Shown: positions 1 through 19,492, counted from the first letter of the stretch. The stretch: 64,000 nt of DNA from Candidatus Limnocylindria bacterium (GCA_036523395.1 DATDEH010000057.1:1-64000), one strand, 5' to 3'. The notes: generated by a model not told the origin, from the letters alone. Numbers and translations are program-made.

Positions 1-111
1 CTCGCGGGCGACCCGGGCGATCTCGGCGAGCACGACCCGGTGCTCGTCCAGGCGCGACGCCCCCCGGATCGTCTTGCCGACGTGCCAGTCCGACGTGTGG
101 AGGAGCTTCAC
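1..111 (-). CDS. sbcD: SbcD/Mre11 nuclease, N-terminal fragment (cut by window edge)
   Basis: The first 37 codons of a gene that runs off the left edge. The peptide begins VKLLHTSDWHVGK, the opening of SbcD/Mre11 metallophosphoesterases. The D-x-H (Asp8, His10) supplies the first two Mn2+ ligands of the dinuclear site. The family is an ATP-assisted 3'-5' exo/endonuclease acting on DNA ends and hairpins with SbcC/Rad50. The start is GTG at 111-109, two bases after the herA stop at 114-116, so it is the next gene of the nurA-herA operon. An sbcC/rad50 gene is expected just beyond the edge but cannot be seen. Family call is firm; details of the full protein are not visible. Confidence 0.88.
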   Translation of the reverse strand, partial: MKLLHTSDWHVGKTIRGASRLDEHRVVLAEIARVARE

Positions 112-113
112 AA

Positions 114-1880
114 CTAGGGCGTGCGGAAGCGCGCGAACACATCGCCTGCGGCAGCCGGGCCGGCCTCCTCGCTTCGCGTCGCCCAGCACGGGAATGGGAA
201 ACGCACCTGGAGTGGAACGGGAACGTGTGGCTGCTGGAGAATCATCGAGCCGGGCTTCAGGATTCCGGCGCGCTGTCGGGTGACCGCCGGCAGGAAACCG
301 TACTCGGCACGGGCCGCTTCGGCGGTGTCGAGCCGACCAACGACGCGGAAGGCGGAGTTGGCGATGATGCGGTTCTCAACTTCGCTCGCAGTTTGCTCCG
401 CACCGATGAGCACGAGGCCGAGCGAGCGGCCCCGCTCCGCCACGTCCAGCAGGACCTCCTTGATTGGGCCTCGGCCATCGCGCGGCGCGTAGCGATTGAG
501 CTCGTCGAGGACGAGGAAATGCAACGGCACGCGCTGCCCCATGCGTTCCTTCTGCTCGAACAGGCGCTTCAACACGACGCCGGTCACGAAGCGTTTCGCG
601 CGGTCGTGAAGGCCATGGATGTCGACGACCGTCACCTGATGCGCCTCGAAGTCGATGCGATGCGCCCCTGGTTGGTCCGCTTGGCGGCCCCAAATAAGGT
701 GGCCGACGCGGAAGCGCGCCGCGTCGAGCCGACGCTCGAACGCACCTACCGTGGCTTCGGCGACGCGCCCACGCCAGGGCGAACCATCGTGCTCGAGTTC
801 GTTCGCGATCAGATCGCAGAGGCCATCGAAGTCCACGACCGCCGTTCCATGCCGCACGACCGTCGCCTCGCTGTCTGGGTCGTCCTCGCACTCGCGGTCG
901 AGGTAGTGCTCGATGCGGGCGACAAGATCGGCGATCTGCGAGCGCTCGTCCTCGGCCTCGGCGAAGAGGAAGCGCAGGAAGCGCTCGCGCACGAACTCGC
1001 GGATCGTCCAGTAGTAGGCGGTCACGCCATCAGCCCGACTCTCGACCGCGGGCAGCGCCTGGCCACCCGCTCCCGCGCGCACCGGTGCCCAAAGGCCGAC
1101 TGAATCGAACGGTTGGACCGGCAGGCCGAGCTTTTCATAGTCGCGGCGTGCCTCTCCGGGAAGCCGCGAGTTCGGCCGATCAAGCCACATGAGGTCTTCG
1201 CCCTTCACGTTGAACACGATTGCCTTCGTGTTCGCTCGGTACTGACCCAGCGCCTCAGTGTTGAACAAGGCGTAGAGCAGGAACAGCGCATAGGTCGTCT
1301 TCGTGGCGACGCCCGAGATGCCCGAGATATTGACGTGCGCGCCCTTTGTGCCGTCGAGGAAGTCGAGGTCAAGGAAGATTGGCTCGCCGTCCCGCGACAG
1401 ACCGGCGGGGAGCCGTCGTTCCATCTGGTCGAAGTACATCGCGTGGTCGCGCTCCGCACCACGCGCACGCGATGCGATCAGACCCGGCCGCGGCGGAACG
1501 AAGACCTCGGGTTCGAACCGGGTCGCGACAACCTCCGCGGCGACCGCGGTCTCGACGGGCAGAACGCCGCGATCGACGAGGAAGACATCCGTGTCGAACT
1601 GAGCGCCCTCATGCCGGGCACGCACCTGCTGCACGATCCCTGAAATGCGCACAGTGCCCCGCCCAGGAACCGGCGTCTCGACCACGACAGCATCGTCGAG
1701 TTGCAGGTACGCGTCGTCGCGGACACCGACCCAGAAGTTGAGCGGCGTCGAGTCCTCGGTGCCGATCACGAAGCCGACCGGCTCGCTGACTTGGCCCCTG
1801 TCTTTAGCTACGTCGAGGTCTCCGGACTGCACCTCAGACTTCTTGCTGCCGTCCGCCGCCACTTTGGTCTTGTCTTTCAT
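114..1880 (-). CDS. herA: HerA-like DNA translocase/helicase ATPase (588 aa)
   Basis: A HerA/FtsK-type hexameric ATPase that pumps DNA, normally into its partner nuclease NurA during end resection. An N-terminal beta-rich segment (about 30-110) fits the HAS barrel. The P-loop is SGISGVATKT (186-195) and Walker B is LVLDE (456-460). A GAEQTASEVENRI stretch near 493 matches the segment after sensor I in HerA proteins. The P-loop is atypical: Thr replaces the Gly before the catalytic Lys. The ATG at 1878-1880 overlaps the nurA stop as ATGA, which decides this start over the longer in-frame extension into nurA. The stop is two bases before sbcD. Family confidence is good; the substrate is inferred from neighbours. 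Confidence 0.85.
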   Translation of the reverse strand: MKDKTKVAADGSKKSEVQSGDLDVAKDRGQVSEPVGFVIGTEDSTPLNFWVGVRDDAYLQLDDAVVVETPVPGRGTVRISGIVQQVRARHEGAQFDTDVFLVDRGVLPVETAVAAEVVATRFEPEVFVPPRPGLIASRARGAERDHAMYFDQMERRLPAGLSRDGEPIFLDLDFLDGTKGAHVNISGISGVATKTTYALFLLYALFNTEALGQYRANTKAIVFNVKGEDLMWLDRPNSRLPGEARRDYEKLGLPVQPFDSVGLWAPVRAGAGGQALPAVESRADGVTAYYWTIREFVRERFLRFLFAEAEDERSQIADLVARIEHYLDRECEDDPDSEATVVRHGTAVVDFDGLCDLIANELEHDGSPWRGRVAEATVGAFERRLDAARFRVGHLIWGRQADQPGAHRIDFEAHQVTVVDIHGLHDRAKRFVTGVVLKRLFEQKERMGQRVPLHFLVLDELNRYAPRDGRGPIKEVLLDVAERGRSLGLVLIGAEQTASEVENRIIANSAFRVVGRLDTAEAARAEYGFLPAVTRQRAGILKPGSMILQQPHVPVPLQVRFPFPCWATRSEEAGPAAAGDVFARFRTP

Positions 1881-2833
1881 GCCGCAGCCTCCGTCGCAAT
1901 CCAATCCAACAGGGCGCGTCTGATCAAGCGCGTGTCGCCGGCACGATGCCGCAGCCATGTCTCCAAGCCGGCGATAGGAACGAGGTTCTGCGGCGTCCGC
2001 GGATCCTGGGCGCGGCCGGAGAAATGGGGCAAGAGGGCCGCGACCCGATCGGCCAGCTCGACGGCGTCCTCGAGCGCCATCGAGCCGCGGACCTCGCAGC
2101 GCACCACGCCGGCGTGGTCGTGCCATGGCGCACGTGCGGGCGTCAGTCGTGAGTACCAGGCGTAACGCCTGCGCCGGTCGGACTTCCCGGCGATCGCGAA
2201 GAGCGGCGTCCGCTCTCCCGGTGCGAGCTTTGGGATGAGGCGACCTTGCTCGGGTTCGAGATAGACACGACCGAAGCGCTTAATCACTCCGACGATCGGC
2301 CCCTTCGTCTCCCGATAGAACGCAAGAGGTCCATCCACAACGACGAGGTCGCCGTCAGTCTCCGCGAGTCGCGCCGCCATGTTCGTCTCCGCGTCGCGCA
2401 TGAGGTCCTGCAGTTTCAGGAGCGGGTCATCCGGCTCCGCGCCAGGCGTTGGTGAGGATCGGAAGGTGCAAGGAGTAGCTCCGATACGCACCTCGATCGA
2501 GCCGATGTCTTGGCCGCCGCCCAGCACCACAGCCCGGCCGACCTGCTCGGCCTCGAAGCTCGCTTTACCGTCGCACAGCGCGCTCCCAGCGGCGTAGGTG
2601 CCGAACAGACCTGGGACCCGTCGACCATCGACATCTGCGAGAAGCCGAAGATCAATCCGACGGACGCCATCGATGAAGTGCACGGGCTCGACTGCGTACT
2701 TCGGCACGGATCGAGGCGCTGACCAATCGTCGCTTTCGATGAATGGCTCGACGACCGCGGGCGGCTCGTCGAAGCGCACATCGAATCCCATTCCGTACTC
2801 AGGCATCCAGGGGTCAGCGCGAAGAGTGAACAT
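1877..2833 (-). CDS. nurA: NurA-domain 5'-3' nuclease (about 318 aa)
   Basis: A NurA-type nuclease, which in archaea degrades 5' strands with HerA, Mre11 and Rad50. Visible motifs in order: FIDGVRRIDLRL (Asp near 55, motif I metal ligand), VVVDGPL (Asp near 167), GVIKRFG shortly after, and a C-terminal YSRLTP...VVRCEV stretch typical of the last strand of the fold. Its stop overlaps the herA ATG (ATGA), so the two are translationally coupled. The start is uncertain: ATG at 2833 is used here; a TTG at 2860 adds nine residues, and neither has a clear Shine-Dalgarno. The identity rests on these motifs plus being directly next to herA. No signal peptide or membrane segment. Confidence 0.78.
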   Translation of the reverse strand: MFTLRADPWMPEYGMGFDVRFDEPPAVVEPFIESDDWSAPRSVPKYAVEPVHFIDGVRRIDLRLLADVDGRRVPGLFGTYAAGSALCDGKASFEAEQVGRAVVLGGGQDIGSIEVRIGATPCTFRSSPTPGAEPDDPLLKLQDLMRDAETNMAARLAETDGDLVVVDGPLAFYRETKGPIVGVIKRFGRVYLEPEQGRLIPKLAPGERTPLFAIAGKSDRRRRYAWYSRLTPARAPWHDHAGVVRCEVRGSMALEDAVELADRVAALLPHFSGRAQDPRTPQNLVPIAGLETWLRHRAGDTRLIRRALLDWIATEAAA

Positions 2834-2899
2834 CCTGGTAAAGGCTACGTAACCCGGCAAGGGTACGCGGATGGCGCCGCGATATGGCGGTTGTCCCGG

Positions 2900-3700
2900 C
2901 TACCGACCCAACTTCTCGTCTACAGCCGCGCGTATGAGTTCAAGGCCGCGCCGGAACTCGCTGGCTCGGGATCCAGGAATCTCCATCCATGTGTGCACGT
3001 GAGAGCTGCCCGCCTGATGCTTCTCCATAAACACGAAGCCCAGCTTGCCCAGAGTCGCTCTGACGGCCGGTGATATGACACCGCTCGTCACATACCCGAC
3101 GCCGCCGCGATGTTTGCGATTGAAGCCACCAAGTTTCACGCCTCGATACCAGATCGTCGTTTGCATCGCGCCCGTCTTCAGGGTGAAGCGAGGCGTCTTG
3201 GCCAGGTGTCGCAGGAGCTCAGCAACTTCATGCGTCAGCTCTGCGTACGCTGCGTTGGCATCGACCTCACGCCACAGGTCACCGGCCCCGCCCGTGAGGG
3301 CCCCTGGAGTACGACGGCGAAGCGCCATCACGTCAGCAACGCTGGTTCCTTTGCCGCGCAGGAACGTCTCGACTGCCTCGATCGAGATCGCGCGAGTGCG
3401 TACGCCCCGGCGCCTGGCGTCTGACTCGACCGCCGCAGACACCGAATGAGCGACGACCCACGGGACCGTTTCCCTACCCTCGACTGCATAACGCTGCGCG
3501 TACCGGAGTACCTGCGTGGTGGCTTCAGTGGTTGCGGGACCCTTCTTCACCTCGACCAACTGCAGAACGCCACCGGGATCCTTAAACAGCAGGTCGAGGA
3601 TCCCAACGCCAGTCGCGAGTTGTTGGCCGACGAGACTGAAGCCGTGCTGCAGGAGCTCCGGGTACCGACTAAGTGCGATCTCTAGTGTGCGTTCGAGCAC
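2900..3700 (-). CDS. PD-(D/E)XK nuclease-domain protein (266 aa, NucS/RecB-like)
   Basis: The N-terminal third carries a PD-(D/E)XK nuclease core: Asp36 in GILDLLF, Glu50-Val-Lys52 in LVEVKKG, then Gln63 and Tyr67 in TTQVLRYAQRY, the Q-motif of RecB/NucS-type domains. The metal-dependent DNA cleavage is inferred from these residues. Residues about 150-266 form a second domain, including TTIWYRGVKLGGFNRK, that I do not recognise. Unlike true NucS, the nuclease domain is N-terminal. The GTG start follows GGGAG at good spacing. It lies 66 bases upstream of nurA on the same strand, so it is probably part of the DNA-end-processing cluster. Confidence 0.72.
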   Translation of the reverse strand: MLERTLEIALSRYPELLQHGFSLVGQQLATGVGILDLLFKDPGGVLQLVEVKKGPATTEATTQVLRYAQRYAVEGRETVPWVVAHSVSAAVESDARRRGVRTRAISIEAVETFLRGKGTSVADVMALRRRTPGALTGGAGDLWREVDANAAYAELTHEVAELLRHLAKTPRFTLKTGAMQTTIWYRGVKLGGFNRKHRGGVGYVTSGVISPAVRATLGKLGFVFMEKHQAGSSHVHTWMEIPGSRASEFRRGLELIRAAVDEKLGR

Positions 3701-3782
3701 TGCCTACTCCCTCGGAGCATCGCGCCGCGCGAACGCGTTACGAGTGACTCAGTCAATCGGCGCAGAACACAGGCTCGCAGCG

Positions 3783-5210
3783 TTAACCCCGAATCGTGGC
3801 TTCGCGGATCTGGCTGCCGCGGCAGCCTGGGCACACCAGCGGCTTACGTCCGCGGCTACGCACTCGATCAAATGACTCGCCACACGATCGACAACTGAGT
3901 GTCTCAACAACCACGAGCCCCACAGCCGGCGGCGACGACGGCCGTGGGTCGTGCTCTTTTGGCAGCGAGCCACGGATTTGAACACGGCATGATTCGGCTC
4001 GAGTAATCAGATCGCGGACGGCTTCCGGTCGGGCCGCCTCGTTGGCGTATACCGCGAGGCCACGCTCAGCCCACCACAAGGCTGTCGTCCAGTCGCCCTG
4101 CTTCTGCTTGCGAATGCACATCTGACGGTATGTCGGGAGCCAAGGTACGGCGCCCCATTTCTTCAGAAATGCAGGACGGAGGGTGTCCATTTCGCTGTCA
4201 TGGTCCCGACAGACAGCGTCGAACTCGGCCAACACATCAGGCATCGCGTTGCGTACCCGATAGATTGCCGCCTCAAGTTCGCTGAACATGAAGTGCCGAT
4301 CGAGTGGATCGTGCTCGCCTGCGAGCAGATCTCGTAAGCGTGCGATCCTGGCAGCGGTCTCGTACGGCAATGTCTCGAGCCAACTCAGGTCGTACGAGTC
4401 GTCGGCCTCATCAGTCGCGATTGCCTCAGAAAGGCCCGTTCTAATGGTCCCGCTATGGGGGATCGGTGTGGGCTGCAACAGGATTCCGAAATCTCGTGGG
4501 TCGTGCCGCAGGAACACGCCGATGGCCTGCTCACCGACGGCAACCCCGCGGAGGGCAATAGGTGCGCTGTAGCGCTCCATCAGGGCAAGCAATCCCGGCC
4601 GATAGCGGCGTGCATCGTCGCGCCCAAGATGTCCGACCGCGAGCTGAGAAATCCACACCGAGATTGCGTTGGGGTCGTAGTGGTTGTCGGTCTCGGCAAC
4701 GAGGACTGCCGTTACCGCGACACGAACCTTACCCGGGCCGGTGATGCGGCGCAGATTCTCTTGGTAGAACGACTCGCCGACGACCTCGAGGTCATCGGAT
4801 CCCCCAAGTACATGGGGAAGCGCGTCCGCCGGGGATGAGCGACGAATCGCGGAGAGGAGACCGGCGACCAAAGGCACGGCCATGTGCGGCAAGTGTCCCA
4901 CCGCTGTCACCTGTGCCCATCCGACGAGGAGCCTCACGTCGCCGCTGGAGATCTCCCGAAACGCTGCCTCTGCGAGTTGCACAGAGATCGACAGACACAC
5001 GGGCCTCTCGTCAACGGCAGCGAGGGCAACGAATAGGTCCCCCAGGGTCGGCCAAAGGCATTGCCCGCCTGATTGCGGAATGTCCAATGACACCCTACCG
5101 AGGACTGTCGGGGGTACGTTGGGGGTACTACCGTCTCGACGCTCGGGGAAAGCCCAGTCCACACAGCGCTGACCGCACAAGTCCACTGGTTTGAAGACCG
5201 AGGACATCAC
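3783..5210 (-). CDS. HIRAN-domain protein with C-terminal zinc ribbon (475 aa)
   Basis: Residues about 141-235 match a HIRAN domain: VVGESFYQENL, then ETDNHYDPNAISVWI and VGHLGRDDARRYRP. In Rad5/HLTF this domain binds free 3' DNA ends and helps fork reversal. Here it is not attached to a SNF2 helicase. The last 50 residues hold CRSC and CPGC pairs, a zinc ribbon. The middle (about 270-420) looks helical and TPR-like (WLPTYRQMCIRKQKQGDW, ALWWAERGLAVYA). GTG at 5210 or ATG at 5207 both follow GAGG. It is co-directional with, and 82 bases upstream of, the PD-(D/E)XK gene. A DNA-end or stalled-fork recognition role is an inference. Confidence 0.72.
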   Translation of the reverse strand: MMSSVFKPVDLCGQRCVDWAFPERRDGSTPNVPPTVLGRVSLDIPQSGGQCLWPTLGDLFVALAAVDERPVCLSISVQLAEAAFREISSGDVRLLVGWAQVTAVGHLPHMAVPLVAGLLSAIRRSSPADALPHVLGGSDDLEVVGESFYQENLRRITGPGKVRVAVTAVLVAETDNHYDPNAISVWISQLAVGHLGRDDARRYRPGLLALMERYSAPIALRGVAVGEQAIGVFLRHDPRDFGILLQPTPIPHSGTIRTGLSEAIATDEADDSYDLSWLETLPYETAARIARLRDLLAGEHDPLDRHFMFSELEAAIYRVRNAMPDVLAEFDAVCRDHDSEMDTLRPAFLKKWGAVPWLPTYRQMCIRKQKQGDWTTALWWAERGLAVYANEAARPEAVRDLITRAESCRVQIRGSLPKEHDPRPSSPPAVGLVVVETLSCRSCGESFDRVRSRGRKPLVCPGCRGSQIREATIRG

Positions 5211-5285
5211 CGGATGCCTCGCACTCTCGTGGCGTTCCCGACGACTCGCGGTGCGAGTGTACGGAGACGTTGCTCGACGTGGTCG

Positions 5286-5606
5286 CTAGCGCTTCTCTGC
5301 GCGTGACCTTGGCTTGTTGCCCTTCGCTGCGGCCGTCAAATCGCGAGGGTTACTCAGGGCGATATCGACAAGGCGTGAGACCTCGACGAGCTGTGCGCGG
5401 AGCGCGTTGAGCGAACCCGACTTCACGGGCCGCCAATCATGGCCGGCGTCAGCGCCAGATGGGCACCACGCCCACTTGCCTCGGACCATCGTCACCTTGT
5501 CGGGTTCTTTCGCCAGAGGACCAGGAAATTCGTGCCGACTGACGCAGACGAGAGCGATCGGTCGAGCCGGCAGCTGCACACGGCCGTTGGTGCTCCGTTT
5601 CTTCAT
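5286..5606 (-). CDS. Small conserved-looking protein of unknown function (106 aa)
   Basis: A 106-residue basic protein. Its middle, KVTMVRGKWAWCPSG followed by ADAGHDWRPV, looks like a genuine conserved core. The C-terminus (GNKPRSRAEKR) is Lys/Arg-rich. There are no membrane segments and only two Cys, so no obvious metal site. No clear Shine-Dalgarno precedes the ATG. It sits between the receiver gene and the HIRAN gene on the same strand. An open frame on the other strand covers the same bases, but its translation is compositionally poor. I cannot assign a function. Confidence 0.5.
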   Translation of the reverse strand: MKKRSTNGRVQLPARPIALVCVSRHEFPGPLAKEPDKVTMVRGKWAWCPSGADAGHDWRPVKSGSLNALRAQLVEVSRLVDIALSNPRDLTAAAKGNKPRSRAEKR

Positions 5607-5622
5607 GAGGGATGGGTGGTAG

Positions 5623-6021
5623 TCAAGAGGCGATCGGCCGGCGGTTTCGCTCGTCGCGATCGCGTCTTTCGCGCGCGACAGTGTCGATCACTTCGATGAG
5701 GTCATCGAGATCAAAGGGTTTCATGACCACGGCGTCGGCAGGCAGCTGCGCAGCGTCTACCGCCGCTCCGTCGTGTCCGGTAAGCACGACCAAGCCGGCC
5801 GCGAAGCGAGACCGGAGCTCGTCCAAGTAAGCGGCAACTGCCTCGGTTGAGTAGGGACTCGCGAAGGTGTCGGTTACGATCACGTCGCCACGCCACAACT
5901 CGATCGAAACGTCCGCGGCGCCAGTACCTTCGACGACCAGTCCGCAGTCGCGGAGGCCCTCGACGACCGTCGCGCGAATTGCGTTGTCGCTCTCTACCAC
6001 GAGGACGGACCACTGATCCAT
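5623..6021 (-). CDS. Stand-alone response-regulator receiver domain (132 aa)
   Basis: A single REC domain with no output domain. It begins MDQWSVLVVESDN, so the acidic pocket is E-S-D rather than the usual D-D. Key residues are present: the phospho-acceptor Asp in DVIVTD, the Thr in VVLTGHDG and the Lys in VVMKPFD. The start is set by a strong Shine-Dalgarno (GAGGTGAT) just upstream of ATG 6021; a longer frame to 6123 lacks one. It could act as a phosphorelay partner or control another protein. It diverges from a LuxR-HTH gene, which may supply the missing output half. No histidine kinase is adjacent. Confidence 0.82.
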   Translation of the reverse strand: MDQWSVLVVESDNAIRATVVEGLRDCGLVVEGTGAADVSIELWRGDVIVTDTFASPYSTEAVAAYLDELRSRFAAGLVVLTGHDGAAVDAAQLPADAVVMKPFDLDDLIEVIDTVARERRDRDERNRRPIAS

Positions 6022-6133
6022 TGCGATCACCTCGTTCACCAGCCTCTCCATCTTGCGAGGGATCGTCACGTCCGCTAGCTGCTCATGAAAGTCCTCAGAT
6101 GAGCATCTCCGGTCGGTTGACATCCCGGGTCTA

Positions 6134-6155
6134 GGGTGTACTCTTTCGGGTGTAC
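6134..6155. promoter_or_regulatory. Direct repeat GGGTGTAC x2 in the divergent promoter region
   Basis: Two copies of GGGTGTAC (6134-6141 and 6148-6155), 14 bases apart start to start, separated by TCTTTC. They lie just before the LuxR-HTH gene (ATG 6173, GGAGG at 6164-6168) in the 151-base gap from the divergent receiver gene. This is a candidate operator; the regulator is unknown, and autoregulation by the adjacent LuxR protein is a guess. Confidence 0.35.
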
Positions 6156-6172
6156 CCGTTAGTGGAGGCTTG

Positions 6173-6679
6173 ATGGCAGTTCACGCACGCACCCCGCAGC
6201 TCACGGAGCGCCAGCGCCTGGTCGTCGTCCATGTTCGCCAGGGTTACAGCAATCGCGAGATCGGCGAAAAGCTCGGGATCAGCGAGGACGGCGTGAAGGC
6301 CCACCTCTCGCGGCTGTACCTCCGGTACGGTGTCACGAACCGCGTCGAGCTCATCTCGTCTGTTGACGAGACCGCGGGACGTCCGTCCACCATCGTCTCC
6401 CGTTCACCCGAGACACCACGCGCGCACACAAATGGGACGCCTGCGGTGGCGCCGATGCTCGCGAACGGACCAACAGCCATCGCCGCGGCGAAGCTGAGCG
6501 CCGTGCGCGACGCGCTGTTGGCCGTCGATGCAGCCCTTGGCCTGGTGAGCGAACTGCCACCGGAAACGACCGAACCGATGATCAGCGCGGTCAAACGCCG
6601 ACTGGGTGGCGCGATCGCCGCCCTCGACGACGCGCAGCGCGCGGTGACCACGTCCGCTGATGGTTCCGCCGCCATCTAA
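6173..6679 (+). CDS. LuxR/NarL-type HTH protein without receiver domain (168 aa)
   Basis: The N-terminal 65 residues are a LuxR/GerE helix-turn-helix: LTERQRLVVVHVRQGYSN, then REIGEKLGISEDGVKAHLSR. The Glu-Arg, Gly-Tyr-Ser-Asn and VKAHLSRLY positions are typical of NarL-family DNA-binding domains. The remainder is a Pro/Thr-rich linker and an Ala-rich helical tail (about 105-160) that could dimerise. There is no receiver, PAS or ATPase domain. ATG 6173 is preceded by GGAGG; a TTG three bases earlier is less likely. It diverges from a stand-alone receiver gene, so the pair may be a split response regulator. Confidence 0.82.
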   Translation: MAVHARTPQLTERQRLVVVHVRQGYSNREIGEKLGISEDGVKAHLSRLYLRYGVTNRVELISSVDETAGRPSTIVSRSPETPRAHTNGTPAVAPMLANGPTAIAAAKLSAVRDALLAVDAALGLVSELPPETTEPMISAVKRRLGGAIAALDDAQRAVTTSADGSAAI

Positions 6680-6927
6680 CGCATCGGCGTACCCAGCCCA
6701 CCGGTGACCGACAAGAAGACCGGGTGGCGTCAACGAGCAGGCTGCACTTCATCGACAACTCGACGACGCTCCCCTGAAAGCAACACAACTCCTACGTGGC
6801 GTAGATCACGTCACGCGGGTAGCGACACCCACGATTAGCACGGCGGCCGTGACTAGCGTCGCGATCGGGCCTGAGAGAAATACACGTTCAGGCACATCGC
6901 TCAAATACCGGAGGAAATCACACACAT

Positions 6928-8265
6928 ATGAACGGCCGTCTACAAAGCCTCTCGACCATCGCGCTCGCCATCGCATTGTCGTTCCCCCTGGGCAACCAGG
7001 CCTTCGCGCTTCCTGTCGCGACCGTCGACCAGCAGCAAACCGTTATCGACCAGAGCGTCGGCGGTCTTGCGATCGGAGGGTTCTATGACCAGAGGCTCGC
7101 GCAGGTCGTCACAGCCGGACGTGCGGGTCTGTTGACGGAGGTGCGCGCGCCGGTGAGCTGCCAATCAGACGTCACCTTCATCCTCGAGATCCAGGGTGTG
7201 ACGGATGCAAAGCCCGATGGCCGCGTACTTTCGAGGACGCTGATCCCGGGTGCGAGCCTGCCGTCAGGTCCGGAGTCAGCCAGCCTGCGGTCACTTCCTC
7301 TTGCGACCCCTGTCTCCCTGAGCGCCGGCACTCGCTTTGCGATCGTTCTCGACGCGACCGGACCGACGCTCTTCGACTATTGCGGGACCTTCCAGGGGCC
7401 GCGCGGCGAATCGTACGAAGGAGGCCAGCTCTACTTCGACTCCCGACCGAATGCCGTTGGCGTTTGGGTCTGCAACTGCGAGTTCGGCCCGAACTACTCG
7501 TGGGACCTGCCTTTCCAGACGTGGATGGAGCCGGCTCCCGATCTCACAGCCCCGTCCATCACTGCGTCGTTCTCAACCCAGCCGAACGCGAACGGTTGGC
7601 ACAACCAACCCGTCGAACTGACGTGGAGCGTGGAGGATGCCGAGTCGGGCATCACATCCCGCAGTGGGTGCGATCTCGTTCGCCTGGAGAATGAAACTGC
7701 TGGAACGGGCGTGACTTGCTCTGCGGTGAACGGCGCCGGCCTCTCCGCTTCGCAATCGGTCACAGTCCGCATCGATATGACGAAGCCCCTCGTGACGTAT
7801 AGCGGCAACCTCGGCTCGTACACGGTGGATCAAACGCTCGCGATCCAATGCCAGGCGAGCGATGCGCTATCAGGGCTTGCATCGAGCACATGCCTCGGCA
7901 TCGCGGGGCCAGCGTACGGATTCGCCCTCGGTGCGAATGAATTCAGTGCCAGCGCGACCGACCGGGCCGGAAACACTGCCACCGCGTCCACGAGCTTCAC
8001 TGTCCGTGTCAACACTGAGTCGCTCTGCGAGCTCACTCGGCAGTTCGTGCGGAGCTCCGCCAAGTACGCGGCGCTGCCGTCGGCGGATCGGGCCGAGATC
8101 CACGGACCGTCGACCGCACTTTGCGCGAAGCTCGCGGCCACCGCGAAAACCGACGTACCCGCGGTGATCGCGGCGTATGGCCATGGCGTCGACAACTTCG
8201 CCAGCCAAGGCTGGCTGACATCCGCCCAAGCTTCGGTCTTGAAGTCGCTCGCGAGCCATCTCTAG
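6928..8265 (+). CDS. Secreted Ig-like-domain protein with C-terminal helical module (445 aa)
   Basis: It begins with a Sec signal peptide (MNGRLQSLSTIALAIALSF, cleavage after about residue 27, AFA-LP). Residues about 30-200 look like a beta-sandwich. From about 205 come repeats of the kind seen in extracellular Ig-like proteins (PDLTAPSITASFS, NGWHNQPVELTWSVEDAESG, SDALSGL). Residues about 365-445 (LCELTRQFVRSSAKY... HGVDNFASQGWLT) resemble a FIMAH-type helical module. No catalytic motif is visible, so a binding or surface role is likely. The 248 bases upstream hold no other gene I can support; GGAGG lies 12 bases before the ATG. A strong hairpin follows the stop. Confidence 0.75.
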   Translation: MNGRLQSLSTIALAIALSFPLGNQAFALPVATVDQQQTVIDQSVGGLAIGGFYDQRLAQVVTAGRAGLLTEVRAPVSCQSDVTFILEIQGVTDAKPDGRVLSRTLIPGASLPSGPESASLRSLPLATPVSLSAGTRFAIVLDATGPTLFDYCGTFQGPRGESYEGGQLYFDSRPNAVGVWVCNCEFGPNYSWDLPFQTWMEPAPDLTAPSITASFSTQPNANGWHNQPVELTWSVEDAESGITSRSGCDLVRLENETAGTGVTCSAVNGAGLSASQSVTVRIDMTKPLVTYSGNLGSYTVDQTLAIQCQASDALSGLASSTCLGIAGPAYGFALGANEFSASATDRAGNTATASTSFTVRVNTESLCELTRQFVRSSAKYAALPSADRAEIHGPSTALCAKLAATAKTDVPAVIAAYGHGVDNFASQGWLTSAQASVLKSLASHL

Positions 8266-8272
8266 CTCACGG

Positions 8273-8312
8273 CTGTCAGCGGCGCCGACGTCATAGCCGG
8301 CGCCGCTGACAG
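8273..8312 (+). terminator. Strong 15-bp inverted repeat after the secreted protein gene
   Basis: CTGTCAGCGGCGCCG (8273-8287) pairs perfectly with 8298-8312 around a 10-base loop. It starts 7 bases after the stop codon. No T-tract follows, so it may act as a structured or Rho-assisted terminator and RNA-stabilising 3' end. Confidence 0.7.
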
Positions 8313-8386
8313 AACGGCCAACGCTCCCTGCGTTCGTGCCCACGCGTCTAGGCAGATCGAGCGCGCGGAGTGGTTAGCCTGCGCCG

Positions 8387-9247
8387 GTGACACTTCTCGC
8401 CCTCGTGCTCGTCCTCGTTTCCGCGGTCATGCACGCGACCTGGAACATGCTCGCCAAACGCGTGCGCGCAGAGACCCCGTTCCTGTTCCTCGTGTATGTC
8501 GTCGGCGCGGCGGCGTACGCACCGTTCGCGATCGCCGTGCTCGTTCTTGCGCGGCCGCAGCTCGGTCTCATCGCCTTCGGGTTCGTCGTGATGGCGATCG
8601 TGCTGCAGACGATCTACTTCGCGACGCTCACCGCGGGCTACCGCGCGGGCGATCTCTCGCTGGTCTATCCGCTCGCGCGCGCGACCGGACCGCTGCTCGC
8701 GACCGTCGGAGCCATCGCGATCCTTGGGGAGCGGCCATCGATCATCGCGATCGGCGGCGCACTCGCGATCGTGGTGGGCGCCGTCGTGCTCACCGGCGAT
8801 CCTCGCTCGCTGCGGGCCCGTGGGGCAGCGGTGGCGGTGGGCTATGCGCTCGCGACCGGTGTCGTCATCGCGCTCTACACGCTGTGGGACAAGACCGCCG
8901 TCTCGGTGCTCCTGATCCCACCGATCGTGTACGACTGGATGACCATCGGCGGGCAGGCACTGGTCGTCGCGCCGGTCGCGTGGCGCCGCCGAACGGAGGT
9001 CGCGGAAGTGTGGGCGACGCGGCGTAGGACCGTGCTCGTCGTCGGCATCATCAGCCGCCTCTCCTATCTCCTGATGCTCACCGCGCTCGCGATCAGCCCG
9101 GTGTCGTACGTCGCGCCGGCGCGCGAGACGGGGATCCTCTTCGGCACGCTGCTCGGGGCGCGAGTGCTGGCGGAAGGACAGGGACAACGACGTGCGGTCG
9201 GCGCTGCCGCGATGGTCGTGGGGATCGTGCTGCTCGCGCTCGGCTGA
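8387..9247 (+). CDS. EamA/DMT-family membrane transporter (286 aa)
   Basis: A drug/metabolite-transporter-superfamily permease with about ten hydrophobic segments and the internal duplication of EamA proteins. Typical signatures are AVMHATWNMLAKR in TM1 and SLVYPLARATGPLLATVGAI at the end of the first half. The second half ends with PARETGILFGTLLGA followed by a final TM (GAAAMVVGIVLLALG). Family members export amino acids, metabolites or drugs; the substrate cannot be read from sequence. The start is GTG at 8387. It is followed 22 bases later by an MFS gene on the same strand, so the two may be co-transcribed. Confidence 0.83.
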   Translation: MTLLALVLVLVSAVMHATWNMLAKRVRAETPFLFLVYVVGAAAYAPFAIAVLVLARPQLGLIAFGFVVMAIVLQTIYFATLTAGYRAGDLSLVYPLARATGPLLATVGAIAILGERPSIIAIGGALAIVVGAVVLTGDPRSLRARGAAVAVGYALATGVVIALYTLWDKTAVSVLLIPPIVYDWMTIGGQALVVAPVAWRRRTEVAEVWATRRRTVLVVGIISRLSYLLMLTALAISPVSYVAPARETGILFGTLLGARVLAEGQGQRRAVGAAAMVVGIVLLALG

Positions 9248-9269
9248 CCACCCAAGTACGGTTCGCGCG

Positions 9270-10397
9270 ATGCGCATGAGGACGGCGACCATCGCGTTCG
9301 GCGGCTTCGTGATCCTCGGGCTGCCGACGGGGATGCTCGGCATCGCCTGGCCGTTCATGCGCGCGGAGCTCGATGCCCCGCTCGCGGGACTGGGCGTCGT
9401 GCTCGCCGCGATGACGGTGACCGAGTTCGGTTCGAGCGCTCTCTCAGGGATTGTTCGCGCGCGATTCGGCACGATCGCGCTGCTGCTCCTGCCGGCCGCG
9501 CTCGCGGCGGGCGGGATCCTGCTGTTCACGCTGGCACAGACGTGGACGACGATCATCCTCGCCGCGGCCGTCCTGGGCGCGGGTCTCGGCCTGCTCGACG
9601 CGGCGTTCAACACCGAAGTCGCCCTCCGGCGGGGCATCCGCTTCATGGGCGCGCTCCACGCGTCGTGGGCCGTCGGCGCAACGCTCGGACCGCCGCTCAT
9701 CGGGCTCGTGCTTGTCGTTGCGGGCTCCTGGCGGCTCGGCTATGCGATCGCGGCGCTGGCCTTCGTGTCGTTCGCGATCGCGACGTATCTCGCGCGTGGT
9801 GACCTTGCGGCGACTCCCGAAAGCGAAGACGCGCCGATCGCGACGAGCGGCGCCCGCCGGGCATCGGTCATGGGCGGTGCTCTCATGTTCGTCTACGTCG
9901 GCATCGAGCTTGGCGCGGGGCAGTGGAGCTTCACGCGCCTGACCGTCGACGGAGCGCTCACCGACGGGCTCGCTGGTCTCGCGGTCTTCCTCTACTGGTC
10001 GGCGCTCGCGGCGGGTCGCATCGCGCTCGCGCTCTTCGGCGAACGGACCGAAGCGGCGCTGCTCGTCGATCTCAGCGTGGCCGGCGCGGTCGCGAGCGCG
10101 GTCGCCTTCTGGATCCTCCCGCCACCGATCGCCGCACTCCTCGCGCTGCCGAGCATCGGCCTTTCGCTCTCGGTGTTCGTGCCGCTACTCCTGTATCTCG
10201 TCCCGCGACGCGTGGGTCGCGCGGCGGCACCCCATGTGATCGGCTACCTGGTCGCGGCGGGCATGATCGGCGGTGCGGTCCTGCCCGCGGGCATCGGACT
10301 GGTGCTGCAAGCGACCGGCGTGTCGAGCCTTGGCATCTGCCTTACCGCGCTCGCGGCGACCTTTGGCGTCCTCAACCTCGCCGCACGCGGGCGATGA
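9270..10397 (+). CDS. Major facilitator superfamily transporter (375 aa)
   Basis: Twelve hydrophobic segments in two six-helix halves, as in MFS carriers. Visible elements: TIAFGGFVILGLPTGMLGI in TM1, the VLGAGLGLLDAAFN segment in the first half, and FMGALHASWAVGATLGP in TM5, a pattern of fucose/sugar-type and YbjJ-like MFS members. The C-half includes GIELGAGQW and GYLVAAGMIGGAVLPAGIG. The start is taken as ATG 9270 (MRMRTATIAF); earlier in-frame codons lie inside the EamA gene and give a non-hydrophobic extension. The substrate is unknown. Confidence 0.82.
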   Translation: MRMRTATIAFGGFVILGLPTGMLGIAWPFMRAELDAPLAGLGVVLAAMTVTEFGSSALSGIVRARFGTIALLLLPAALAAGGILLFTLAQTWTTIILAAAVLGAGLGLLDAAFNTEVALRRGIRFMGALHASWAVGATLGPPLIGLVLVVAGSWRLGYAIAALAFVSFAIATYLARGDLAATPESEDAPIATSGARRASVMGGALMFVYVGIELGAGQWSFTRLTVDGALTDGLAGLAVFLYWSALAAGRIALALFGERTEAALLVDLSVAGAVASAVAFWILPPPIAALLALPSIGLSLSVFVPLLLYLVPRRVGRAAAPHVIGYLVAAGMIGGAVLPAGIGLVLQATGVSSLGICLTALAATFGVLNLAARGR

Positions 10398-10501
10398 CCC
10401 AAACGGCTGCCGGCTCGAGCTCCGGGCGGCGGAAGCGTCGCGGTCCAGAGCTTGGTGAAATCGGGGCTCCGCGACAGCGGCATGGTCGTATGAAGGTAGC
10501 C

Positions 10502-10675
10502 ATGATCACTGGTGAGATTCCTGCACGCGCGGAACTGAACACCGAGCCCGAACACCGGATCCGCGGCCGCAGCCTTCGCGTTGTGCTCTTGGTCACGGTC
10601 GTGCTCTTGGTCGTCGGACTCGTCGTGCTCGCCGGGCTGTCGGGACTGGCCGCCGACCCGATGACCGGAACCTGA
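10502..10675 (+). CDS. Small single-pass membrane protein (57 aa)
   Basis: A short frame with a polar N-terminus (MITGEIPARAELNTEPEH), a basic patch (RIRGRSLR) and one long hydrophobic helix (VVLLVTVVLLVVGLVVLAGL), ending in a short tail. The GAAGGT-like Shine-Dalgarno just before ATG 10502 favours this start; an ATG at 10490 is the alternative. The positive patch before the helix suggests the N-terminus stays in the cytoplasm. No function is recognisable. It may be an accessory to neighbouring transporters, which is speculation. Confidence 0.5.
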   Translation: MITGEIPARAELNTEPEHRIRGRSLRVVLLVTVVLLVVGLVVLAGLSGLAADPMTGT

Positions 10676-10725
10676 GGGGGCGGCTAGCGCTGGCGAGTTC
10701 CGCCACAGCACGCGAACATGGCGAC

Positions 10726-11172
10726 GTGCAGTTGAGCGACAGCGGGCGGGCGCTCGTCGAAACGGCCCGAAGCGCGGCCATGATCACCCTCAGGCGCGAC
10801 GGCAGCGCGCACGCGGTCCGCGTGGGGGTCGCGCTCGTCGATGGCAAGGTATGGAGCAGCGGGACCGCGGACCGCGTACGCACGCGTCACTTGCGCCGCG
10901 ATCCGCGCTCGACACTGATCGTGTTCGCAGCCGGTCGCGAGGCGCTTACCCTCGAGGCGAGGGTCAACATCATCGAAGGACCCGACGTCCCGGAGCTGAG
11001 CTGGAAGCTCTTCTCGCTCATGCAGCGCGCGATGACGCCAGCTCCCCCGCCCGGACATCTCATGTGGTACGGCAAACTGAAGACGCGCGAGGAATTCCTT
11101 CAGGCGATGATCGCCGAGCGCCGGCTGATCTACGAGTTCGACGTCATCCGCGAGTACGGCGCGCAGCTTTAG
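10726..11172 (+). CDS. PPOX-class flavin/F420-binding split-barrel protein (148 aa)
   Basis: A pyridoxamine-5'-phosphate-oxidase-like split beta-barrel of about the usual length for F420/FMN-dependent PPOX proteins. Strand signatures include AAMITLRRDGSAHAVRVGVAL and VWSSGTADRVRTRHLRRDPR, followed by STLIVFA and LTLEARVNII. Family members reduce small molecules with F420H2 or FMN, or bind biliverdin or haem; the substrate is not predictable. The start is GTG 10726. It converges on the cupin lipoprotein gene, with a hairpin between them. Confidence 0.8.
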   Translation: MQLSDSGRALVETARSAAMITLRRDGSAHAVRVGVALVDGKVWSSGTADRVRTRHLRRDPRSTLIVFAAGREALTLEARVNIIEGPDVPELSWKLFSLMQRAMTPAPPPGHLMWYGKLKTREEFLQAMIAERRLIYEFDVIREYGAQL

Positions 11173-11187
11173 CGGTGCGCATGGACA

Positions 11188-11213
11188 ACGACCGTGCCTC
11201 GCGGCACGGTCGT
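11188..11213. terminator. Bidirectional hairpin terminator between convergent genes
   Basis: ACGACCGTGCC (11188-11198) pairs perfectly with GGCACGGTCGT (11203-11213) around a TCGC tetraloop. It lies between the stops of the convergent split-barrel (11172) and cupin (11230) genes, so it can serve both strands. There is no T-tract on either side. Confidence 0.72.
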
Positions 11214-11229
11214 CGTCGTCAGCGACGCG

Positions 11230-11790
11230 TTATGGCTTCCGGGGATCGTCCGCGGGATTCACATACGCGATCCCGCTGGGGCCGATGCCATGGACCTGCG
11301 TGATCGTCACGCCCTTCGCGAAGACGTAGTGCTGGGTCAGGGCCGGGATCAGGATGAACGAGCCGGTCGGCATCTCGATGGCTGTCTCGCGCTTGCCGCT
11401 CGTGCCCATGCCGACGACGAACGTGCCCTGGACCACGGTCACGTGCTCTTCGATCGGATGCTGATGCGGCGGCAACACGTATCCGTCAGGGAACTTGAGT
11501 CGCTGCGTGAACGGAACGCCGGCTTTGCTCGGATCGCCTTCCATCACCATGACTTCGAGGCCAGGCGGAAAGGCAGCCGATGCTTTTGCCCACACGAACG
11601 GCTGCGGGACCGAGTTGGCCGGCGTCAGCAGCATCGCGGGTGCCGCTGAGGCGACCGCCACCGTCGGTGCCGCCGTCGGCGCAGACGTCGCGACTGTGGG
11701 CGACGCCGCTCCGCCGCAGGAGCTCGCTACGAAGGCGGCCACGGTCGAGAACGCGAGCAGAGATGTGCGGAGCGCGCGCGGAGCGTTCAT
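11230..11790 (-). CDS. Cupin-domain lipoprotein (186 aa)
   Basis: A signal peptide ends in lipobox VASSC with Cys25 the probable lipidated residue, followed by a Thr/Ala/Pro-rich linker. The second half is a single cupin: PPHQHPIEEHVTVVQGTFVVG gives the first motif's His, His, Glu and later His, and GSFILIPALTQHYVFAKG the second motif's His. Such RmlC-like domains bind a metal and a small ligand; no reaction can be named. A strong Shine-Dalgarno (AAGGAGG) before ATG 11790 fixes the start. It diverges from the large LuxR-cyclase regulator, so it could be its target, though nothing proves this. Confidence 0.83.
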   Translation of the reverse strand: MNAPRALRTSLLAFSTVAAFVASSCGGAASPTVATSAPTAAPTVAVASAAPAMLLTPANSVPQPFVWAKASAAFPPGLEVMVMEGDPSKAGVPFTQRLKFPDGYVLPPHQHPIEEHVTVVQGTFVVGMGTSGKRETAIEMPTGSFILIPALTQHYVFAKGVTITQVHGIGPSGIAYVNPADDPRKP

Positions 11791-11898
11791 TCGTCCTCCT
11801 TAAGGTCGTGGCGACACATTCCTCCCTTCGCTCCGACGGCACATCCGGAAAACTACCGATATTCCGAGAAATAGCACCCGGCCGATGAGAATGGCTGA

Positions 11899-14800
11899 AT
11901 GCAGGTGACCAGCCTTACAAAACGCGAGCGCGAAGTTGCCGCGTACGTCGCTGAAGGACTGACCAACCGCGACATCGCCGACCGGCTGGTGATCTCGGAT
12001 CGGACGGTCGAGACGCACGTCGAGCACATCCGCAACAAGCTCGGCGTGCGATCGCGCGCTCAGGTCGCGACCTGGACCGTCACGGTCGGTGAGGTCACGG
12101 CAGCGCCTCTGTCGCGCGGCTCCGAGCACCGGGTCGTCACATGCCTGTTCGCCGACGTCGCGCCCTCGGCGGACCTCTCCGCACGGCTCGGCCCCGAGCG
12201 GACGAAGACCGTGATCGACCAGGCGCTCCAGGATCTGAGCGCGATCGCGACCGTGGAGGGGGCGGTCGTCGAAAAGTCCACCGGTGGCTCCTACTTCGCC
12301 ATGTTCGGTGCCCCGGTCACACATTCGGACGATCCGACACGCGCCCTTCGAGCGGCCGAGAGCGCGATGCGCTGGGGCAGAGCGCATCCCGAGACCGCGG
12401 TGCGCATCGGCGTGGAGACCGGCGAGGTGCTTGTCGACCTGGACGCGATCGCGACGACCGGGGACGGCATGGCCTTTGGCAGCTGCATCAATCTCGCGGG
12501 ACGTCTGCGCAATGGCGCCGGGCCTGGCGAGATCCTCGTCGGGCCGGTCTGTCGCGAAGCCACCTCGGCGACGGCCGAGTTCGTCAGCTATGGCCAGCGT
12601 GATGTCGACGGCACCGGAACGATCTTGGTCGCGGCACTGGTGCGCGCCGAGACCGGGCTCGCCGCCCGCCCGTCGTTCGTCGGCAGACGGCGAGAGCTCG
12701 ACCTCCTTCGCGGAGCGCTGGAACGCGCGCGTTCGCGAGAGGCCGTCTTCGCGCTCCTCATCGCGCCACCCGGCCAGGGCAAGACGCGGACCGCGGAGGA
12801 GTTCGTCGCGTCGATCGACGGAAAGGCACACGTGCTCCGCGCCCGCTGCCGTCCCGGCGCGGAGCTCGGTGCGCAGACGCCGCTGCATCAGCTCCTGAGC
12901 GGAGACATCGGACCGCCGACCGTGGAAGCAGTCCGGGCCCGGATCGCGGAACTGATCGCGGATGCGGGCGAGCGAGCCGACACCGCCGCGGCGCTCGCGC
13001 ACAGCGCCGGCGTGCTCGTCGATCCGCGGCTGATGAGCCTCAGTACGACCGAGCGTCTCGAGGCGCTCTCGAGCGCGTGGCGACGCTATCTCGGCGGGCT
13101 CGGAGCCGACCGCCCGGTCGTGATCTGGATCGACGACCTCCACTGGGCCGACCCGCAGCTCGTTCGTCTCCTCGATCGCATCACGGTCGGCGCCGGGACC
13201 GCGGTCCTCGTCATCGGTGCGGCCCGTCCTGAGTTCAAGGACGCCGTTGCGCGACCCGGTCGCGATCGGATGACCATCGACATCGGCCCGCTCGACGATG
13301 AAGACGCGGCGGCGCTCGGCGTGAGCGCTGGCGCGACCGATGAGCGCGCGACCCTCCGTGCGGAAGGCAATCCACTGTTCGTGATCGAGCTCGCGCGATC
13401 GCGCGCGAGCGAGCCTGGCGACATCCCGGTGACGGTCCAGGCGGCGATCGGGGCGCGCCTCGACGAGCTGCCGATCGCCGACCGCGACCTTCTCCAGCGC
13501 GCCGCTATCGCCGGCGAGATGTTCGATGTGCGCGCAGCCGCACTCCTCGTCGGCCGCGACATGCCCGAGGTCGCCATATCGCTCGCCCGTCTCGTCCAGC
13601 TCCGTTATCTCCGAACTGTCGATGGCGGATTCCGCTTCCACCATCCGCTTGTCCATGAAGTGGCCTATTACCGTCTCACGCTGAGGGACCGCATGCGTCT
13701 TCACGCCAGCTTCGCTCGCGACGGCCTTGATCGCGCGGATGTGGCCGCTCTCGCGCATCACTGGTGGGATGCGCTGCGCCCGCCAGACGGTGACTGGGTG
13801 TGGCAGGGCACGCCCACGCTCGACGACATGCGTCGCGAGGCGATCGACGCGCACATCGCCGCAGGCCAGCGCTTTACCGATCAGGACTCGCACGAGCTCG
13901 CCGTCGAGTTCCTGGAGCGTGCGATCTCGCTTGCGAAGCTGCCGGCGGACCGGGGTCGGGCCGAGAACGCGCTTGCGAGCGCGTACTGGCGGTCCTCGAT
14001 GGGCGATGAGGCCTGGACGCACCGGCTCCGCGCCATCGACCAGTACCGGGTCTCGGGCCAGGCCGCCCCCGCCGCTCTGTATGCCGACGCGATCGAGCTC
14101 ACGATGTTCCAGTACGGATACTTCCGGAACCTTCCCGACCTCAGCGCCGTGCGTCGGCTCCTGAATGAAGGGCTCGATGCCGCACGCAACGAGAGCGACG
14201 CGGTCTCGCTCGCCCGCCTGCTGGTGCAGCACGGCCACCTCTTCAGCGACGCAGCGTCAGTTGACGAAGCTCTCGAGATCGTCCGTAGGTCGAAGGATCC
14301 CCGCGTTCACGCCAATGCATTGCAGCGCCTCGCGATCGTGAAGATGTGGTCCGGTGAGATCAGTGCCGCGCAGGACACCTACCGCCGTGTCGATGAGCTC
14401 GTGGCACAGGGGGCCTGGGCCAACGAGGTCGAAGTGCTCTGGTGGCGTGGCCTCACGTGCTACCTCGCGGGGGATCTGGGCGAGGTCGAGCGGATGAGCG
14501 GCCGCCTGACGGAGGTCGCGATACGTCGCAGCGCGCACCTGCGCAGTCACGCCCTCGCACTCGTGTCGCACCTGCTCTTCGCGCGCGGCGACTGGGACGG
14601 CCTGGCCGCGCTGGGCCGGGAGCTCATCGAGCTGGAGAGCGCGAATCCCAGCGCGCAGCTGTGTCTGGCTGCCGCGGGCGCGGCCGGCTACGCGGTCGTC
14701 GCCGATTCGATCCGCGGCCGTCCATCACCACTGCGGATCGACGAATTTGTCGCCCGCATGGTCCCCGAGTCCCCCGCGGTTCGCGACGCGGACCTGATCC

Positions 14801-15141
14801 TGCCGCTGGCGGTCTTGGGCCGTGACTGCACTGCGCTCTCGACCGTCGCGTTCGGTCGATCGGGCGCGGTGTGGGATCGCGAGGTCATCGATCCTGTTGG
14901 GCTCAGACTCGTGATGGCGCTCGTGGTTCAGGAGCGGTGGGACGATCTCGCGGCTCCGCTCGATCGGCTGGATCAGGCGGCGGCGCGCGGTAGTGGTCTC
15001 GCGCGAGCGGTCGCGACCGCGGCCCGCGGCGAGATGAGTGGTGGGCCGGCTGGTGACAGCGCGCACCAGGAGCTCCGGGCGTTGGGTTACATCGGACTCA
15101 GCGAAGCCCTCGCCTTTCGGTCGCCGGCGAGTCGCGCCTAG
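11899..15141 (+). CDS. LuxR-HTH / cyclase-like / AAA-ATPase regulator (1080 aa)
   Basis: A large multidomain regulator. Residues 1-65 are a LuxR HTH ([20 protein letters not shown]). About 75-250 is a class III nucleotidyl-cyclase-like domain: [17 protein letters not shown] keeps the first metal Asp (86), but the GD motif reads [10 protein letters not shown], so Gly130 replaces the second Asp and the domain is probably inactive. About 255-600 is a P-loop ATPase (PPGQGKTR, 291-298; [12 protein letters not shown], Walker B). The rest is helical, TPR-like. In most LuxR-ATPase (LAL/MalT-type) proteins the HTH is C-terminal; here it comes first. The stop codon shares a CTAG with the convergent dppC stop. 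Confidence 0.83.
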
Positions 15142-16097
15142 TCCACCTTCAGCTTCGGATCGAGCGCGTCGCGCAGCCCGTCGCCGAGGAAGTTGAAGCA
15201 GATCAGCGTCACCGCGAGGACAAGAGCGGGGAACAGCAGCTCGTGCGGGAACGCGCGCATGTTGCGGACCCCTTCGGCGATGAGGATGCCCCAGCTCGGG
15301 AGTGGCGGGCGCACGCCCAGCCCGAGGAAGGAGAGACCGGCTTCCGTCGCGATCGCGCCGGGGATGCCGAAGGTCGCGGCAACGATCACCGGCGCGAGCG
15401 TGTTGGGGAGCAGGTGCCGCGACATGATCCGCAGGTTCGACGCGCCCACCATGCGCGCGGCTTCAACGAACTCCTTCTCTTTGAGCGAGAGGACCTGGCC
15501 GCGGACGAGGCGCGCAACAGTCAGCCAGGACACCAGACCGAGCGCGATGAACACCCCAAGGAGCCCGCCGGTCAGGTTGTCGAGACCGCCGACGACCGCG
15601 AGGACCGGTCCCGTCGGCTGATCCAGCACGGCGCGCAGGTACGTGATCACGACGATGACGAGCAGCAGGCTGGGAAAGGCGAGCAGCACGTCGACGGTCC
15701 GCATGATCAACGTGTCCAGCCACTTGCCGAAGAATCCCGCCACGAGCCCGAGCGGCACGCCGATCAACACGACGATGAGCACGTCCACCAGCGCGACGGC
15801 AAGTGAGATGCGGCTGCCGTACACCATGCGGCTGAGCTCGTCGCGTCCGAGCAGGTCCGTACCGAAGAGGTGGGCCGCGCTTGGTCCGAGATCGGTGCTC
15901 TCGAGGTCCTGGCGCTCGAAGGGATAGGGGGCGACCAGGTTCGCGAAGAGCGCGACGAAGACCACGAGGACGACGAATACGAGGCTCACCACGGCCGCGC
16001 GGTTCCGGGTGAGCCGATGCCAGGCGTCGCGCCACAGGCCCGTCGGTCGTCGCGCGAGCGGCATCGCGAGCGAAGGGGTCGCGACCATCCTTGTCAT
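15138..16097 (-). CDS. dppC: Peptide/nickel-type ABC transporter permease, DppC/OppC family (319 aa)
   Basis: The inner-membrane permease of a dipeptide/oligopeptide-type ABC importer. It has a cytoplasmic N-terminus and six TM helices. The periplasmic loop after TM1 has the family pattern [12 protein letters not shown]...[19 protein letters not shown]. The EAA-type coupling loop is present ([22 protein letters not shown]), and the C-terminus ends [15 protein letters not shown]. The ATG overlaps the dppB stop (ATGA), so the two permeases are translationally coupled. No ATPase genes (dppD/F) are in this cluster. Confidence 0.93.
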
Positions 16098-17020: not shown

Positions 17021-17078
17021 CGATGCAGAGCCGCGCGGGGCGGAGGCCGCTGATCCAGCGGCCTACGCCCCGCCATGA

Positions 17079-18707: not shown

Positions 18708-18841
18708 CTAGAGCTCCCTGCGGTAAACCCCGCCCCCTGACAAGCGGGAAGGATACGCCGCCTCTTACTACCTCAAGATGACGCTCGGAGTTCGGCGATG
18801 TTGCTGCCACACCGAAGATGTACGGCAGCCGTTAGCCCTCC

Positions 18842-19483: not shown

Positions 19484-19492
19484 GGCGGCGGG

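Follow-up and report, generated by a model that had tools for sequence, protein, structure and literature searches.

The resection activity of the Deinococcus HerA-NurA complex has been published (PMC9960219), and in the solved complex (PDB 7F6D) residues K175 and T176 of Deinococcus radiodurans HerA (drHerA) contact the nucleotide and the metal. The arrangement nurA-herA-sbcD-sbcC has already been noted in Oceanithermus (PMC5448004), and a paper from 2026 places the bacterial operon in Deinococcus-Thermus (PMC12977600). The literature consulted puts bacterial HerA-NurA in that group and debates whether the enzymes serve chromosome repair or the destruction of foreign DNA. Here we describe a Deinococcus-type NurA-HerA-SbcD operon from a Candidatus Limnocylindria bacterium, found together with two rare companion genes at what is most simply read as the end of a genomic island in tRNA-Sec. 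The island setting suggests that these genes travel from one bacterium to another and may serve them as a weapon against DNA from outside.

Organization of the Locus

The stretch of DNA analysed, in the following called the window, has a length of 64,000 nucleotides and corresponds to bases 1-64000 of contig C57 (69,627 bases) in an assembly of 3.0 Mb and 128 contigs. Its left end carries five genes, all on the minus strand, and their order agrees with that of the initial annotation: HIRAN, PD-(D/E)XK nuclease, nurA, herA, and sbcD (Table 1). The tight junctions reported for the last three genes were likewise confirmed; nurA and herA share an ATGA overlap (1880-1877), and a gap of two bases separates the herA stop codon from the GTG of sbcD at 111. 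The two upstream genes lack translational coupling, with 82 bases between the HIRAN and the NucS-like gene and about 66 bases from the latter to the ATG of nurA at 2833, which is probably the true start rather than the called one at 2860. None of the genes in the window were called as part of a known defence system.

Table 1. Features at the left end of the window.
Feature	Position	Strand	Basis
sbcD (Mre11-type nuclease), first 37 codons	1..111	-	NCBIfam TIGR00619, 2.6e-10
herA, Deinococcus-type hexameric dsDNA translocase, 588 aa	114..1880	-	Profile to PDB 7f6d_B, 4.9e-191
nurA nuclease, 327 aa as called	1877..2860	-	Profile to 7f6d_H, 1.8e-41, and 1zup, 4e-18
266-aa nuclease, NucS/EndoMS catalytic domain and further C-terminal domain	2900..3700	-	Pfam NucS_C, 8.1e-9
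HIRAN, helical (TPR-like) region and C-terminal zinc ribbon, 366 aa (probable start)	3783..4883	-	Homologues, profile, model
tRNA-Sec 5' half, nt 1-39, ending in the anticodon loop	5190..5228	-	100% identity to intact congener genes

The window begins at the end of the contig, and sbcD is seen there with its first codons only. The visible part of SbcD is 54-56% identical to SbcD of G028, a genome from the same order of organisms, and the DWH phosphoesterase motif is present. A search of the window's own assembly found neither the remainder of sbcD nor an sbcC resembling that of G028. In G028 itself and in most of the related loci the four-gene operon is complete.

The NurA-HerA Core

Profiles for HerA and NurA were built from seven homologues. 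In the profile search the match of the window HerA to drHerA extends across profile positions 19-571, and the protein is 75% identical to the HerA of G028; no Pfam family matched the gene. The residues K194/T195 (Walker A) and D459/E460 (Walker B) are conserved. The P-loop, GISGVATKT, is identical in drHerA and differs from the textbook GxxxxGK[ST]. Throughout this HerA subfamily the loop is a nearly invariant G[IV]SGVATKT and exceeds the common Walker A motif by one residue (window 114-1880). NurA scores 20 bits with the Pfam family of the same name, just under the cut-off, and its acidic residues D64, E158, and D176 are invariant in the homologue alignment. From the profile matches and the P-loop, the window HerA and NurA are an ordinary bacterial pair that is probably active.

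The Two Upstream Genes

The initial annotation let the HIRAN gene start at a GTG at 5210, which would give a protein of 475 residues. This start is very probably wrong; the gene is likely to begin at the ATG at 4883, because the longer reading frame runs into the half tRNA-Sec, its first approximately 110 residues are missing from the homologues, and the structure model of that part has a pLDDT near 30. The HIRAN domain scores 20.8 bits in Pfam, under the gathering cut-off of 24.7, and a profile search gave 3k2y at 5.8e-6 and the HIRAN domain of HLTF at about 0.01-0.03. The HIRAN domain of HLTF binds 3' DNA ends. The C-terminal zinc ribbon is a weak match, and its CxxC pairs align with those of a homologue in the genome G030.

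Two full-length relatives of the HIRAN protein were found, in G030 and G143 (Chloroflexota), with 45-46% identity, and both begin near the equivalent of 4883. The genome of G030 encodes no HerA of the window type. In G143, sbcC is followed on its own strand by the HIRAN gene at a distance of about 144 bases, and nurA-herA are found at the end of another contig. These two contigs probably join, since both ends carry the same palindromic repeat. The repeat, of about 115 bases (L153 1-172 and L114 1-183), is located between herA and sbcD and might be a mobile repeat inside the operon.

Both upstream genes had been proposed to belong with nurA-herA. For the HIRAN gene this is partly borne out, as it adjoins the operon in two of the three full-length members, those of the window and of G143. 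Regular membership is not supported: among the best 80 of at least 563 related stretches, none has a HIRAN or a NucS-like gene within 10 kb of herA. The tie between the HIRAN protein and the operon is thus rare, though probably not random. The protein is a candidate accessory factor.

The second gene, annotated as a PD-(D/E)XK nuclease, could be identified more closely. It encodes a NucS/EndoMS catalytic domain followed by a further domain of about 150 residues. The protein aligns with EndoMS (5gke), and D36-x13-E50-x-K52 occupy the catalytic positions. With the NCBIfam NucS equivalog it reaches 38.3 bits, the cut-off being 216, and the match begins only at position 130 of the 250 in the profile. 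Searches of approximately 500 genomes, viral contigs, phages, and plasmids yielded no full-length homologue; they gave nothing or matches confined to the NucS domain at the N-terminal side of the protein. A single-sequence structure model was uninformative (pLDDT 40).

A Split tRNA-Sec at a Probable Island Boundary

The anticodon loop is a frequent site of cutting by integrases in tRNA genes, and the displaced fragment marks the end of the island (PMC4383910). Displaced 5' fragments are the rarer form, found for 159 of 3,919 islands (PMC4383910). When window 2800-17000 was compared with four congeners, a perfect match of 39 bases was found at 5190-5228 in three of them. In all three an intact tRNA-Sec gene begins with these 39 bases, and the window sequence diverges right after TTCAAA, in the anticodon loop. 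Because these bases are an exact 5' half of a gene that is intact in three congeners, all five genes are assigned to an island; the simplest reading, inferred from this one boundary, is that a genomic island inserted into tRNA-Sec at the anticodon loop and that window 1-5189 represents its end.

A complete tRNA-Sec was not found in the window, and an Rfam scan of window 1-20000 gave no match, as expected for half a tRNA. Neither an intact tRNA-Sec nor a 3' half was present in the approximately 1.0 Mb read of the contigs of this 3.0 Mb assembly. No integrase was seen in the window, and the other end of the island lies beyond the contig. At the related operons tRNA genes are scattered without any pattern, which implies that the tRNA site belongs to the island of the window and not to the operon.

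On the other side of the boundary, an MFS gene matching window 9257-10397 sits 36 bp from the 5' end of the intact tRNA-Sec in the congener G002, on the same side as in the window. The 4 kb between the tRNA-Sec half and the MFS gene (window 5229-9256) have no counterpart at the G002 site and might be a second insertion. Their products include a response-regulator-like protein, a regulator of the LuxR type, and an EamA transporter with relatives elsewhere in the congeners.

Distribution of the Operon

A scan of GTDB genomes with a HerA alignment gave at least 563 related stretches, and the best 80, with 52-79% identity, were examined. Within these best 80 of at least 563, sbcD is found downstream of herA on the same strand in 71 loci, and nurA is placed before herA or after sbcC. 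The 80 loci belong mainly to Actinobacteria, but also to Gemmatimonadota, Acidobacteria, Bacteroidota, Chloroflexi, and others. HerA is present in 29 of 400 Chloroflexota genomes, each from another genus, and 15 of the Chloroflexota loci examined display the complete nurA-herA-sbcD-sbcC order. Further copies of the operon are carried by plasmids of Streptomyces, Sphaerospermopsis, Aulosira, and Chlorohelix. An archaeal-style operon in a bacterial setting, as the initial annotation had it, is thus nothing exotic; nurA-herA-sbcD is widespread. The operon core is of a known kind, and its range is wider than stated in PMC12977600.

Among 101 relatives, own genome included, HerA is found in two and the NucS-like gene in one. 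The other carrier of HerA is G028, which has nurA-herA-sbcD-sbcC without the HIRAN and the NucS-like genes. The patchiness among close relatives for which the initial annotation proposed a test, as for defence or mobile loci, is seen, and the block ends in a split tRNA. In Micromonosporaceae many of the operon loci have flanking genes in common, a pattern suggestive of stable inheritance on the chromosome.

Some loci carry a variant cassette, in which sigma-factor-like, hypothetical, and ImmA/IrrE genes stand directly before nurA-herA-sbcD-sbcC (L025 8559-17873, L026 8753-18065, and L158 6090-15026). It looks like a regulated form, and its hosts are a Chlorohelix plasmid, an Aulosira plasmid, and a Chloroflexota chromosome. 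Inserted unrelated genes, one of them apparently a transposase, separate herA from sbcD or sbcD from sbcC at L072 (10942-15078), L049 (4918-7346), and L071 (11678-13099). The four operon genes thus need not stay strictly coupled.

Defence Systems Near Related Operons

The neighbours of the operon were scanned with PADLOC; neighbour counts are approximate, since gene calling takes wrong frames in some GC-rich loci. Four tandems were found in which a known system, CBASS III, Gabija, Wadjet I, or Wadjet II, lies on the same strand as the operon with gaps of about 10-163 bases. At L040 (1591-5722) the CBASS III genes cyclase-HORMA-TRIP13-NucC end about 16 bases before nurA; the TRIP13 frame is broken, and the assignments of cyclase, HORMA, and NucC rest on pooled hits and gene order. 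At L055 (15207-18890) nurA ends about 10 bases before gajA-gajB of Gabija. The two remaining tandems follow sbcC, which ends 44 bases before jetA1-jetB1-jetC1 of Wadjet I at L158 (12288-19900; genome G231) and about 163 bases before jetA2-jetB2 and a JetC-like gene of Wadjet II at L161 (12342-19899; genome G180). A Wadjet II set adjoins the Streptomyces plasmid copy of the operon, and CRISPR I-G genes are found near L029.

Most of the operon loci have no defence neighbours. No complete defence system was detected in a control set of 91 proteins, nor was one detected among the 148 neighbour proteins of a further group of loci, and the link to defence is therefore limited to part of the family. 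The number of defence systems to be expected nearby, about 1 in 49 loci, is an assumption-based estimate and not a measured background.

Repair or Defence

As judged from the sequence, the cargo of the island appears to be a NurA-HerA-SbcD(-SbcC) operon with the HIRAN/zinc-ribbon and NucS-like genes in front. From the observed gene identities, catalytic residues, operon conservation, split tRNA, and patchy distribution we infer possible substrates, an order of steps, cooperation of the upstream genes, and an anti-invader role. The NucS-like enzyme, or another cutter, would make breaks, and HIRAN and SbcCD would recognise and open the DNA ends. The HerA hexamer would then pull duplex DNA into the NurA dimer, and NurA would degrade it in a manner similar to RecBCD. 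On islands and plasmids, invading DNA would be the most likely target. We see about an even chance that the set is such a machine, carried by an island, degrading DNA ends as RecBCD does, and directed largely at invaders. The full-length match to the solved HerA-NurA, the conserved operon, the tRNA-Sec half, the patchiness, the plasmids, the defence tandems, and the HIRAN adjacency support this. The lack of an integrase in the window and of a regenerated tRNA-Sec in the approximately 1.0 Mb read, the absence of defence neighbours at most loci, the apparent stability in Micromonosporaceae, the missing defence call in the window, and the absence of HIRAN and NucS-like genes from all of the best 80 loci count against it. 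In the alternative of ordinary double-strand-break repair, NurA-HerA-SbcCD would resect chromosomal ends for recombination, the island would merely have spread the operon, and the HIRAN and NucS-like proteins would either assist repair as additional factors or be bystanders. In Deinococcus, NurA-HerA carries out end resection, and recombination is reduced when it is lost (PMC9960219; summarised in PMC12977600), the archaeal and Oceanithermus operons have been read as repair operons (PMC5448004), and many operon loci lie in conserved chromosomal contexts without defence genes. The split-tRNA boundary, the patchiness, the plasmid carriage, and the tight CBASS, Gabija, and Wadjet tandems fit poorly with repair, as does Thermococcus kodakarensis HerA-NurA, which degrades both strands and for which the authors doubt a role in resection (PMC12977600). 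Repair is a serious contender that we hold to be well short of an even chance, and for the window copy the anti-invader role is slightly ahead of it, because the copy lies at an island end and is patchy among relatives. The operon family could well serve both purposes, as RecBCD does.

Whether the core serves defence or repair, the HIRAN protein and the NucS-like nuclease might be separate island cargo with no functional tie to nurA-herA-sbcD. This falls only a little below even chances, given the 0/80 count, the gaps of 66-82 bases instead of coupling, and a HIRAN homologue in G030 without such a HerA; the position of the HIRAN gene beside the operon in two of the three full-length members, once before and once after it, speaks against it. 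NurA-HerA-SbcCD could be a modular degrading unit plugged onto break-making defence modules (CBASS-NucC, Gabija, Wadjet), with the HIRAN and NucS-like pair as an undescribed module of this kind, which we consider rather unlikely. It is very improbable that the locus is an assembly artefact in which the left 5.2 kb stem from another organism and were misjoined at the shared tRNA-Sec half. Although 39 bp are short enough for a low-k misjoin, and the remaining sbcD and sbcC are not in the assembly, the window HerA is the sister of the HerA from G028 (support 0.99), and the junction lies exactly at an anticodon-loop site that integrases use (PMC4383910). The complete operon is now seen in several bacterial phyla, on plasmids, at the probable end of a tRNA-Sec island, and in tandem with known defence systems, which provides cases in which repair or defence can be tested.

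Comparison with Known Systems

Both proteins of the core match D. radiodurans NurA-HerA (PDB 7F6D; PMC9960219) over nearly their full length, and the P-loop, the Walker B acidic pair, and the nurA-herA order are all the same. The D. radiodurans pair is described without sbcDC, whereas the window has sbcD after herA and the HIRAN and NucS-like genes before nurA. The archaeal nurA/herA/mre11/rad50 operon and the Oceanithermus profundus nurA-hepA-sbcD-sbcC locus contain the same genes in the same order downstream of herA (PMC5448004). Compared with these, the window operon is visible only to the start of sbcD at the contig end, lies on a probable island in a split tRNA-Sec, and is preceded by two extra genes.

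SIR2-HerA, DUF4297-HerA, and MADS likewise combine an ATPase of the HerA family with a nuclease, and the HMM similarity is weak (mad8, 6.9e-10). The window contains no SIR2, DUF4297, or other MADS genes, and the partner of its HerA is NurA. The NucS/EndoMS mismatch endonuclease shares the catalytic domain with its D-E-K triad with the 266-aa protein, which differs by having no N-terminal NucS domain, an extra C-terminal domain, and a score far under the equivalog cut-off. A profile search supports a HIRAN fold in the window protein, as in the HIRAN domain of HLTF and in 3k2y. The window protein differs from such HIRAN proteins in having no helicase and in combining its HIRAN domain with a helical region and a zinc ribbon.
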